Origin: Acidobacteriota bacterium
GTDB taxonomy: Bacteria > Acidobacteriota > Terriglobia > 20CM-2-55-15
DNA: 64,000 bases
Direction: 5' to 3'
Assembly: GCA_022821145.1 (NCBI GenBank)
Contig: JAJEEE010000009.1
Coordinates: 1 to 64,000, forward strand
Every line of letters starts with the position of its first letter. Position 1 is the stretch's first letter. The position numbers and the translations under genes are program-made. Shown piece after piece: positions 25,019-29,306 of this stretch. The notes beneath the pieces were generated by a model. That model worked only from the letters and a program-made list of their open reading frames with translations, did no database searches and was not told where the DNA came from.

Positions 25019-26182
25019 ATGATCGAACTCGATCCGCGAACGACGGTTCCGACACGCTATTGGCACGTTCTGGACGACGGCCGGGTCCAGTGCGACCTCT
25101 GCCCCCGCTTCTGCAGGCTGCACGAAGGCCAGCGGGGCTTCTGCTTCGTTCGCGCGCGTTCCGGAGACGGCGTCGTTCTGACCACCTACGGCCGCTCCAG
25201 CGGCTTCTGCGTGGATCCGATCGAGAAGAAGCCGCTGAATCATTTCCTTCCCGGATCGTCCGTCCTGTCGTTCGGCACGGCCGGGTGCAATCTCGGTTGC
25301 AGCTTCTGTCAGAACTGGGACATCTCGAAGTCCCGGGAGGTGGACACGCTCGCGGCGTCGGCCGCGCCGGACGCCATCGCACGGGCCGCCGAGACGCTCG
25401 GATGCCGCAGCGTGGCGTTCACCTACAACGATCCGGTCATCTTCATGGAATACGCCGTCGACGTGGCCGGCGCCTGCCGCGAGCGCGGCATCCGCACGGT
25501 GGCCGTCACCGCCGGCTACATCACGGCCGAACCGCGGCGCGACTTCTTCGAGCACATCGACGCCGCCAACGTGGATCTCAAGGCGTTCACCGACAGCTTC
25601 TACTCGAGGAACTGCGCCGGACACCTGCAGCCGGTCCTGGACACGCTGGTCTATCTCAAGCACGAGACCGGCGTCTGGGTCGAGATCACCGACCTGATCA
25701 TCCCGGGCGAGAATGACCATCCGCGCGAGGTGGAAGCCATGTCGCGGTGGATTCGGGCCAACCTGGGCGTCGACACGCCGCTGCACCTGACGGCCTACCA
25801 CCCCGATTTCAAGATGCGGGACCCGCGGCCCACGACCGTCGAGGATCTGCACGCGGCGCGGGAGATCGCACTGGGCGCCGGCTTGCGTTACGTCTATGCG
25901 GGCAACGTCCACGACAGCGCCGCCGGCAGCACGTATTGCCACGGTTGCGGCGAGCGCGCGATCGGCCGGGACTGGTACGAGCTCCAGGCCTGGAACCTGG
26001 ACGACGGCGGATGTTGCCGCACTTGCGGCGCGCCGTGCGCCGGGGTGTTCGACGGACCGCCCGGAGACTGGGGGCGACGGCGCCTGCCCGTAAGGATCGA
26101 GGATTTCGTCGCTCAGGGAGCGTTCCGGGCTCCGTCCGGGCCAGGCGCCCGGTTTCCGGCGCGGAAAACGACGGATTTGTAA
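25019..26182 (+). CDS. amrS: AmmeMemoRadiSam-system radical SAM enzyme (AmrS-like)
   Basis: 387 residues. The N-terminal CDLCPRFCRLHEGQRGFC segment is followed by the radical SAM cluster motif CNLGCSFC (CX3CX2C, near residues 98-105), NVDLKAF and a C-terminal zinc-ribbon-like CHGCG...CRTCG ending in AGVFDG, all typical of AmrS and of PflA-related activases. The family is defined by co-occurrence with Memo and AMMECR1 proteins; neither is encoded near here, so this copy is isolated. Substrate unknown. ATG 25019 follows AGGGAAGCG. Confidence 0.9.
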   Translation: MIELDPRTTVPTRYWHVLDDGRVQCDLCPRFCRLHEGQRGFCFVRARSGDGVVLTTYGRSSGFCVDPIEKKPLNHFLPGSSVLSFGTAGCNLGCSFCQNWDISKSREVDTLAASAAPDAIARAAETLGCRSVAFTYNDPVIFMEYAVDVAGACRERGIRTVAVTAGYITAEPRRDFFEHIDAANVDLKAFTDSFYSRNCAGHLQPVLDTLVYLKHETGVWVEITDLIIPGENDHPREVEAMSRWIRANLGVDTPLHLTAYHPDFKMRDPRPTTVEDLHAAREIALGAGLRYVYAGNVHDSAAGSTYCHGCGERAIGRDWYELQAWNLDDGGCCRTCGAPCAGVFDGPPGDWGRRRLPVRIEDFVAQGAFRAPSGPGARFPARKTTDL

Positions 26183-26302: not shown

Positions 26303-26330
26303 TTGACACCGGCGGAAGCGTCGCCATAAT
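26303..26330 (+). promoter_or_regulatory. Sigma-70 type promoter of the porin-amt-PII operon
   Basis: A perfect -35 TTGACA (26303-26308) and a -10 CATAAT (26325-26330, one mismatch) are separated by 16 bases. This is the best promoter in the window. It places the transcript start at about 26337, some 195 bases upstream of the porin ATG, leaving a long structured leader. Confidence 0.7.
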
Positions 26331-26343
26331 AGTTTTCGGCAAA

Positions 26344-26384
26344 GATACAACGAAGTATCATTTGCGTTGACGACGAAGTCTTCG
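26344..26384 (+). promoter_or_regulatory. Putative ANTAR-type tandem hairpin antiterminator
   Basis: The first hairpin is GATAC-AACGAA-GTATC (26344-26359): five pairs closing a six-base loop with A at position 1 and G at position 4, the signature of RNA bound by ANTAR proteins. A second, weaker hairpin follows at about 26365-26384: GAC-GACGAA-GTC, extended by a CG pair across two U-U mismatches. Its loop has G at 4 but G, not A, at 1. Its 3' arm lies inside the 5' arm of the terminator that starts at 26376, so the two folds exclude each other. This is the antitermination layout known from NasR, AmiR and EutV targets. No ANTAR regulator is encoded in the window. Confidence 0.5.
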
Positions 26385-26415
26385 GGCCCTTGGGCTCCGA
26401 AGACTTTTTTGTTTT
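26376..26415 (+). terminator. Intrinsic terminator inside the operon leader
   Basis: AAGTCTTCGG (26376-26385) pairs perfectly with CCGAAGACTT (26397-26406), with a further GC-rich extension in the loop, and is followed by TTTTTTGTTTT counted from 26405. It lies after the promoter at 26303 and about 120 bases before the first gene, so transcription must read through it for the operon to be expressed. It may act as an attenuator, or as the end of a short leader RNA of about 75 bases. Confidence 0.85.
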
Positions 26416-26533
26416 CCGAGACACCGCCGTCTCCACGCGACAAAGACGTCCATTCGACGCCCCGCTTTTTCCGTCGGGCGCGATGGGCGTTTTCTTGTTC
26501 CAGTTCGAAACTTTGGGGAGGTCGATCTCGAAA

Positions 26534-27370
26534 ATGAAAACAAAGATTCTGTTGAGCACACTTGGTCTTCTGTTGTCCACCATTCCGTTCGCGGGAACGG
26601 CGGCCGCGCAGGGACCCAACTATTCCGCGGCCGGCGACGTGGCGCTCGTCAGCAAGTACATCTGGCGCGGACAACGGCTGACGAACGACTGGAGCCTGCA
26701 ACCCTCCTTGACACTGGGCGTGGGTGGATTCGCCTTCAACGCCTGGGGATCGATGGACATGACGGCCGTCAACCCCACCGACCTGAATTCCCTCGAGACG
26801 AGCAACGGACTGCAGGGGAAGTTTTCCGAAGTCGATTACACCCTGTCGTACGATCACTCGTTCGAAAACGTCTCGGTCGGCACGGGGTTGATCTTCTACA
26901 CGTTCCCGGAGCGGTTCGCCACGACGGCGGAGTGGTACACCAGCCTCAGCGTCGACAACGCCCCGTTGGCGCCGGCGTTCACCGTCTACGTGGACGTCGA
27001 CGAAACCAGCGCCGGCGGCGGCTCCGCCGGGGTGTACTTCCTGATCGAGGCCGGGCATTCGTTCGGGTTCAACCACGACGTGTTCACCGGGCTGGATCTG
27101 GGCGCCTCGCTCGCGTTCGCGAACAGCGGATTCAACAACTTCTACTACGGCCTGAACGAGGGCGGTGCGCACGACGCCAGCGTGACGCTCAACGTTCCGA
27201 TCACCATCAACGACAACTGGTCCGCCGGTGCGTGGGTGACATACAGCGGGCTGATTGGCGACGGGATTCGCGGAGCGCAATTCCAGGATCCTCGCGTACC
27301 CGAGCGTCCGACCGGCGCGAGCTACGCCGACACGGTGTGGGGCGGCTTGAGCCTGAGCCTCTCGTTCTGA
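26534..27370 (+). CDS. TorF-family putative porin
   Basis: 278 residues with a signal peptide ending at AAAQG. The opening of the mature part, GDVALVSKYIWRGQRLTNDW, is the hallmark of the TorF/CHP02001 outer-membrane family, and the chain ends in an aromatic strand (LSLSLSF). The family is often found near ammonium transport or dehydrogenase genes and is presumed to form a pore. GGGAGG lies about a dozen bases before ATG 26534. First gene of the operon with amt and the PII gene. Confidence 0.85.
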   Translation: MKTKILLSTLGLLLSTIPFAGTAAAQGPNYSAAGDVALVSKYIWRGQRLTNDWSLQPSLTLGVGGFAFNAWGSMDMTAVNPTDLNSLETSNGLQGKFSEVDYTLSYDHSFENVSVGTGLIFYTFPERFATTAEWYTSLSVDNAPLAPAFTVYVDVDETSAGGGSAGVYFLIEAGHSFGFNHDVFTGLDLGASLAFANSGFNNFYYGLNEGGAHDASVTLNVPITINDNWSAGAWVTYSGLIGDGIRGAQFQDPRVPERPTGASYADTVWGGLSLSLSF

Positions 27371-27536: not shown

Positions 27537-27584
27537 GCGGCCCGGACTTCCACAGAATCAGTTTGCGAAATAAGGAGCATGTTC

Positions 27585-28904
27585 ATGTCACGTTGGACTG
27601 GTAGATTCACGGTGCTGCTGGCGCTGATCGCGTTCACGGGAGTCACCGCATACGCACAGGACGGCCCCACCGCCGAAGACGCCGTATTCGTCGCGAACAA
27701 CATCTGGATGATGGTGGCCACGTTCCTGGTGTTCATCATGCACCTCGGCTTCGCCACCCTGGAATCCGGACTCGTGCAGGCCAAGAACACGGTCAACATT
27801 CTGTTCAAGAACGTCATGATCGTCGCGATCGGCCTCCTCACCTATGCCGCCGTCGGATTCAACCTGATGTACCCGGGCGACTTCAACGGCGTCCTGGGCT
27901 TCGCCGGGGCCGGCCTCTCGTTCCCGGGCGGGGCGGACGGACTGATCGCGTACGCCGACGGCGGATACACCTACTGGACGGATTTCCTCTTCCAGGGAAT
28001 GTTCGCCGCCACGGGCGCGACCATCGTCTCGGGAGCCGTCGCGGGCCGCATCAAGCTGCCCAGCTTCCTGCTCTTCACGACGGTGTTCGTCGGGCTGATC
28101 TATCCGTGGGTCGGAAGCTGGAAGTGGGGCGGCGGCTGGCTCGATCAGATGGGCTTCTACGACTTCGCCGGCTCCACGCTGGTGCACTCCGTCGGCGGTT
28201 GGGGGGCCCTGGCCGGCGTCATCCTCCTCGGCCCGAGGCTGGGCAAGTACGTCGGCAACCAGGTGCAGGCCCTTCCGGGATCGAGCATGCCGCTGGCCAC
28301 CATCGGCGTCTTCCTGCTGTGGCTGGGCTGGTTCGGATTCAACGGCGGCTCCGTTCTCTCGGCGGATCCCGAGCTCACCTCGTTCACGTTGGTGACTACC
28401 TGCCTGGCGGCGGCCGCGGGCATCGTCGGGGCCTACGTCACGTCAAGCATCGTCCAGAAGAACCCCGATCTCTCGATGGTGCTCAACGGCGCGCTGGCCG
28501 GCCTGGTGGGCATTACGGCCGGCGCGGACACGGTGTCGGTGATGTCGGCGGTCATCATCGGTCTCGTGGCCGGCGTCCTGGTGGTGCTGTCGGTCATCAC
28601 GCTCGACAGCAAGTTGAAGCTGGACGATCCCGTGGGCGCGATATCCGTTCACCTGGTGTGCGGCATCTGGGGCACGTTGGCCGTGGGCATCTTCAGCATG
28701 AACGAAGATCACAGCTTCGTGACCCAGTTGATCGGCGTTGCGGCATACGGGGCCGTGACCTTCATCGCGGCGTTCGCCATCTTCGGCGCGATCAAGGCCA
28801 TCATGGGAATTCGCGTCTCCGAGGACGAGGAGTTGAAGGGCCTCGACATCGGCGAGCACGGAATGGAAGCCTACCCCGGTTTCCAGAACTTCATCGTCCA
28901 GTGA
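27585..28904 (+). CDS. amt: Ammonium transporter Amt
   Basis: 439 residues with a cleavable signal peptide (ending AYAQD) and eleven membrane helices. The pore histidines are in STLVHSVGGWGAL and GAISVHLVCGIWGTL, and the family motif GFNLMYPGDF and the FGFNGGS stretch are present. It conducts ammonium/ammonia into the cell and is blocked by a PII protein under nitrogen excess; the PII gene follows directly. The second ATG (27585) is preferred because AAGGAG ends seven bases before it; an ATG at 27579 is too close to that site. Confidence 0.95.
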   Translation: MSRWTGRFTVLLALIAFTGVTAYAQDGPTAEDAVFVANNIWMMVATFLVFIMHLGFATLESGLVQAKNTVNILFKNVMIVAIGLLTYAAVGFNLMYPGDFNGVLGFAGAGLSFPGGADGLIAYADGGYTYWTDFLFQGMFAATGATIVSGAVAGRIKLPSFLLFTTVFVGLIYPWVGSWKWGGGWLDQMGFYDFAGSTLVHSVGGWGALAGVILLGPRLGKYVGNQVQALPGSSMPLATIGVFLLWLGWFGFNGGSVLSADPELTSFTLVTTCLAAAAGIVGAYVTSSIVQKNPDLSMVLNGALAGLVGITAGADTVSVMSAVIIGLVAGVLVVLSVITLDSKLKLDDPVGAISVHLVCGIWGTLAVGIFSMNEDHSFVTQLIGVAAYGAVTFIAAFAIFGAIKAIMGIRVSEDEELKGLDIGEHGMEAYPGFQNFIVQ

Positions 28905-28964: not shown

Positions 28965-29306
28965 ATGAAACTGATTACAGCCATGATCCAGCCCCACAAG
29001 CTGCCCGACGTCAAACAGGCTCTCTTCGATGCCGAGGTCCACAAGATGACGGTATCGACGGCGGTCGGCGCCGGCGAGCAGAAGGGCTACGAGGAGGCGT
29101 ACCGCGGTGTGATCCACACCATCAACCTCCTGAACAAAGTGGAGATCCAGATCGCCGTCAACGATGACTTCGTCGAGAAGACCGTCGAAGCCATCATCAA
29201 GGGCGCGCGGACCGGCGCCATCGGCGACGGGAAGATCTTCATCCAGGAGCTGACCGACGCCGTCCGGATCCGGACCGGCGAGCGCGGCACCGCCGCCATC
29301 GGTTAG
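28965..29306 (+). CDS. glnK: PII nitrogen-regulatory protein (GlnB/GlnK family) without Tyr51
   Basis: 113 residues aligning without gaps to GlnB until near the C-terminus. ATP/2-oxoglutarate-binding residues are kept: Gln39, the B-loop GDGKIF with Lys90, and Arg101/Arg103 in VRIRTGE. The T-loop reads [18 protein letters not shown]: Tyr46 is present, but position 51, uridylylated in proteobacterial PII proteins, is histidine. Lys85 is alanine. It would sense 2-oxoglutarate and ADP/ATP and gate the Amt channel, but presumably without GlnD uridylylation. It follows amt by 60 bases. Confidence 0.92.

Follow-up and report, generated by a model that had tools for sequence, protein, structure and literature searches.

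The leader of the porin–amt–PII operon very probably consists of two ANTAR-type transcription attenuators in series, in which termination is the default state and is relieved by a GAF-GAF-ANTAR protein. The operon was analysed within a 64 000-nucleotide stretch of DNA (the window) and its features are collected in Table 1. A sequence-only reading had described an ANTAR leader in front of these genes. That assignment is strongly supported by conservation, by covariation of P1, by a covariance model and by the single ANTAR protein of the host genome, but it was incomplete: a second attenuator at 26418–26494 had been missed. When the active regulator is absent each nascent RNA would fold into its intrinsic terminator, as folding calculations indicate. 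By homology to EutV, NasR and AmiR, the activated GAF-GAF-ANTAR protein would bind the hexaloop hairpins P1 and P2 and stabilize the weak P2 stem, depriving the terminator of its 5′ arm, and transcription of the porin, amt and PII genes would require polymerase to clear both units. The RNA binding by the ANTAR protein, its signal and the sign of the control are predicted.

Table 1. Features of the tandem leader and of the operon behind it. Loop letters stand between the stem arms; A1, G1 and G4 denote loop positions 1 and 4.
Feature	Position	Strand	Basis
Sigma-70 type promoter, TTGACA-16-CATAAT	26303..26330	+	11/12 consensus matches
Leader A hairpin P1, GATAC-AACGAA-GTATC, loop A1/G4	26344..26359	+	Sequence, G001 comparison, family covariation
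Leader A hairpin P2, GAC-GACGAA-GTC, loop G1/G4	26369..26380	+	Identical in G001; core in about 35 family leaders
Leader A intrinsic terminator, overlaps P2 3′ arm	26376..26415	+	Folding
Leader B hairpin P1′, GAGAC-ACCGCC-GTCTC, loop A1/G4	26418..26433	+	Identical in G001
Leader B hairpin P2′, GAC-AAAGAC-GTC, loop A1/G4	26439..26450	+	21.4 bits with leave-out covariance model
Leader B intrinsic terminator, 5′ arm common with P2′ 3′ arm	26446..26494	+	Folding
Outer-membrane porin-like gene (TorF/Gcw_chp, weak match)	26534..27370	+	PF09694 E 2.9e-4; TIGR02001 E 1e-4, below cut-off
amt, ammonium transporter	27579..28904	+	PF00909 E 1.6e-112; TIGR00836 above cut-off
PII nitrogen regulatory protein	28965..29306	+	PF00543 E 1.4e-26

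The promoter, the P1 hairpin with its A1/G4 loop and a P2 hairpin that has one arm in common with an intrinsic terminator were recovered by sequence and folding where they had been noted before. The promoter hexamers (−35 at 26303–26308, −10 at 26325–26330) are both retained in the same-genus genome G001, with a diverged spacer between them. In leader A the stems comprise 5 bp (P1) and only 3 bp (P2), separated by a linker of 9 nt, and the 3′ arm of P2 (26378–26380) sits within the 5′ arm of the terminator, whose stem pairs 26376–26385 with 26397–26406 and is followed by a T run at 26405–26410. The free fold of the terminator has an energy of −30.5 kcal/mol compared with −18.8 kcal/mol when P2 is forced. 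Because forcing P2 costs 11.7 kcal/mol in this calculation, termination appears to be the default and P2 to need help. The complete 113-nt piece folds at −42.9 kcal/mol (z = −4.1 against shuffles). A strict anatomy scan, which demanded a P1 with an A1/G4 loop and 5 bp or more, a P2 with G4 and an overlapping terminator, matched once in the window; 1.74 million strand-bases of comparison loci, taken almost entirely from other lineages, yielded no match.

Leader B is likewise a dual-hexaloop attenuator and starts directly after the first terminator and its T run. Its stems are of 5 bp (P1′) and 3 bp (P2′), with a 5 nt linker, and the terminator (−35.3 kcal/mol free, −25.7 kcal/mol with P2′ forced) is favoured by 9.6 kcal/mol. 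Across both leaders G4 is present in all four loops and A1 in three of them. Both units and both terminators are kept in G001, where P2, P1′ and P2′ are identical and P1 has changed at loop positions 5–6 alone; the promoter spacer and the terminator loops hold most of the differences from the window. The same tandem order, an A-like followed by a B-like unit, also precedes amt in G005, G006 and G009.

Leaders were searched for in 61 genomes with a pattern that demanded the P2 core plus a T run and left P1 free. After inspection, about 35 leaders built in this way were retained from other genomes of the family; the matches L115, L118 and L144 were excluded as not leader-like in appearance. Many precede ammonium transporter genes, and others stand before two glutamine synthetase genes (glnA) and genes for amino-acid permeases, BBP2 porins, an amidase, a circularly permuted ATP-grasp protein, GAF-glucan phosphorylases and a GAF-GAF-ANTAR protein; one precedes an operon whose second gene encodes a Peripla_BP_5 urea-type binding protein. 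A covariance model search added leaders before glnA, permease and PII genes.

The hexaloop rule was assessed at 37 sites whose selection had ignored P1. An upstream A1/G4 hexaloop hairpin of at least 4 bp was present at 22 of these, compared with 1.5 ± 1.2 in dinucleotide shuffles, and other letter pairs at positions 1 and 4 never exceeded 5. In alignments whose sequences were picked for possessing P1, which favours the inner pairs of P1, 24 double-changed cells were counted against 9.2 in shuffled data, and sliding the partner destroyed the pairing; 16 against 5.9 remained when G000 and G001 were omitted. Covariation of both stems in relatives had been proposed as a check and was obtained for P1, whereas the P2 stem is invariant across the set, partly through being a search criterion, and is uninformative. 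A P1-like match in G021 (L011:169) was dismissed as a chance 13-mer. The earlier doubt over the G at position 1 of the P2 loop is eased by the family, in which this position is free (G 18, A 15, T 6 and C 1 among 40 sites, not A in 25) while the P1 loops carry A1/G4.

No ANTAR family match was found in Rfam at gathering or relaxed thresholds, which returned noise only. With a covariance model trained without the host genus (G000, G001; the leave-out model, R2), leader A was the top match in the 4.2-Mb genome (35.6 bits, E 3.1e-5), and leader B scored 21.4 bits, which alone is not significant genome-wide. The two best remaining genome matches of the models (C21:28624 and C37:10856) were dropped, as they overlap coding genes and have no terminator. 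Near 80 related Amt genes from other lineages, over 675 kb of surrounding sequence, the leave-out model gave no match, so the leader appears to track the family and its ANTAR protein rather than the Amt gene. The two further amt genes in the host genome (L041 and L049) have no such leader. The operon of G055 encodes an Amt that is 80% identical, yet no such leader was found there, and the G055 genome (83% complete) gave no ANTAR match. The nearest named relatives of the Amt protein are from Acidobacteria AH-259-G07 and Vicinamibacteraceae; they are the sole pointer to an acidobacterial host, and the same Amt type also occurs in other phyla.

Exactly one ANTAR protein above the cut-off is encoded in the host genome (C3:13418-13570; PF03861, 72.3 bits). 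The earlier reading had proposed looking for an ANTAR response regulator; the protein is clearly an ANTAR protein, but its 427 residues form a GAF-GAF-ANTAR architecture and it is not a response regulator. One or two ANTAR proteins are carried by 11 of 11 family genomes, and every family genome with these leaders has an ANTAR gene. Compared with EutV (PDB entry 6wsh), most residues that contact the RNA are conserved: R142, K149, E160, Y164, R168, M172 and R175 are retained, while K143 and K147 are replaced by R, N173 by K and R177 by T; in EutV, Y164 stacks on G4 and M172 is the loop plug (PMC8934654). The first GAF domain resembles that of EI-Ntr (3ci6, E 3e-20), in which the GAF domain is reported as required for glutamine binding (PMC4848567), and NifA, at its GAF end, is the best match of the second. 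The target genes, together with these similarities, make cellular nitrogen status the most likely signal, which the GAF domains would sense. No nitrogen gene was seen in the vicinity of the ANTAR gene in the host genome. In several genomes of the class (G005:C61, G048:C89, G027:C203, G022:C38 and G042:C84) ANTAR genes adjoin amt genes or sit a few kilobases from them.

Three other explanations of the leader were weighed. The first hairpin and T run might merely terminate the upstream radical-SAM gene, with the amt promoter further downstream. The AmmeMemoRadiSam enzyme gene does end at 26182, about 200 bases upstream, but between this gene and the terminator there is a strong promoter, also kept in G001, P1 covaries in leaders of many different genes, which a plain terminator leaves unexplained, and in the family leaders P2 and the terminator come together (the T run being part of the search pattern); we regard this explanation as very improbable. 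Scarcely more probable is another leader mechanism, such as a metabolite riboswitch, leader-peptide attenuation or a different protein, acting through the alternative hairpins. Two alternating hairpins before a terminator would fit other attenuators too. Nevertheless, Rfam offered no match, the leaders have nothing in common beyond the short stems and the hexaloop letters recognized by ANTAR proteins, and the leaders occur together with an ANTAR gene.

ANTAR binding could also be real with one unit mattering, for example an active leader B behind a leader A that is a relic. This is unlikely, although somewhat less so than the two preceding explanations. It draws on the G1 of P2 in leader A and on the A1/G4 loops of both leader B hairpins. 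Against it, family leaders usually have a letter other than A at P2 position 1, among them leaders that form the only unit before glnA and permease genes, leader A outscores leader B by far with the leave-out model, and both terminators are retained in G001. The reading as two serial attenuators is preferred. The sequence-only reading had staked itself on conservation of the loops and on an ANTAR protein in the genome; the loops are conserved in relatives along with the terminator, and the protein is present.

ANTAR-target RNAs are known for EutV (Enterococcus faecalis eut), NasR (Klebsiella nasF) and AmiR (Pseudomonas amiE) (Ramesh et al., 2012, PMC3369931). Like these, the leaders described here have two short hexaloop hairpins with G4 in each, a short linker, a P2 arm common with an intrinsic terminator, and nitrogen-related genes behind them. 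Both linkers lie within the 5–12 nt range of eut, in which linkers of 3 or 14 nt impaired induction (PMC3369931). Unlike the known RNAs, two serial units stand in one leader and P2 of leader A has G1; the regulator is GAF-GAF-ANTAR as opposed to REC-ANTAR (EutV) or NIT-ANTAR (NasR). Mutating A1 in P2 of the EutV RNA reduced EutV binding (PMC3369931), and A1 is not contacted by EutV in the 2022 crystal structure (PMC8934654). Under the strict A1 rule of the 2012 seed both loops of leader B conform, as does P1 of leader A, and P2 of leader A does not. Judged by its letters, leader B follows every testable ANTAR sequence rule and leader A departs only at A1 in P2; leader B would be classed as an ANTAR RNA by the strict rule, and leader A by homology and the relaxed rule only. 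Actinobacterial ANTAR RNAs (PMC8164766) share the dual hexaloop motif and a relaxed A1/G4 rule, a single loop variation having been allowed in that survey; few of them overlap a terminator, whereas terminators are present here but were part of the search.

The system is of a known kind because Ramesh et al. predicted ANTAR RNAs before PII and amt genes as well as several units per operon (PMC3369931): the predicted RNAs share the kind of target gene, and the regulon of Desulfotomaculum acetoxidans, with 13 attenuation units in six transcription units, is a precedent for multiple units. Acidobacteria are not mentioned in the main text of that paper, and a search on ANTAR and Acidobacteriota found nothing relevant in the literature collection covered. 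We consider the leader a further, well-supported case of an established mechanism; its novelty is modest, and no earlier report was found for the family. It has a different sensor (GAF-GAF) and a relaxed loop rule; the porin-first operon and the recurring tandem A–B order are, as far as found, undescribed. The family thereby gains a sizeable predicted ANTAR nitrogen regulon (amt, glnA, PII, permeases and porins) and a candidate trans-factor with a paired GAF sensor, an architecture called uncharacterized in 2012. The natural variation at P2 position 1 agrees with the 2022 structure. A bolder proposal, which we put forward only tentatively and consider rather doubtful, is that throughout the family the genes for nitrogen uptake and assimilation are controlled by a GAF-GAF-ANTAR protein instead of by transcription factors. 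Such a protein would read metabolite signals directly with EI-Ntr-like and NifA-like GAF domains and drive two serial antiterminators whose P2 rule no longer requires A1.

Some further observations were made. The amt leaders L112, L124 and L128 (G008, G004 and G010) seemingly have three hexaloop hairpins before one terminator, located in the roughly 60 nt that precede the P2 core, in the order CAC-NNNGNN-GTG, a middle hairpin such as AAC-AACGAN-GTT, and GAC-NACGAA-GTC. At L142 (G003:C95) a leader of the ANTAR type stands before the GAF-GAF-ANTAR gene itself, which suggests that this gene may be autoregulated. ANTAR-type leaders at L119 and L131 precede a gene of the GAF-DUF3417-glucan phosphorylase type, a possible hint of a carbon–nitrogen link; identification of L119 as PtsP was rejected, as Pfam assigns GAF and glucan phosphorylase, and L131 looks alike. 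In the PII protein of the operon a His apparently replaces the canonical uridylylated Tyr51 (YRGVIH compared with YRGAEY in the G006 protein), and on this account the protein may lie outside uridylylation control.
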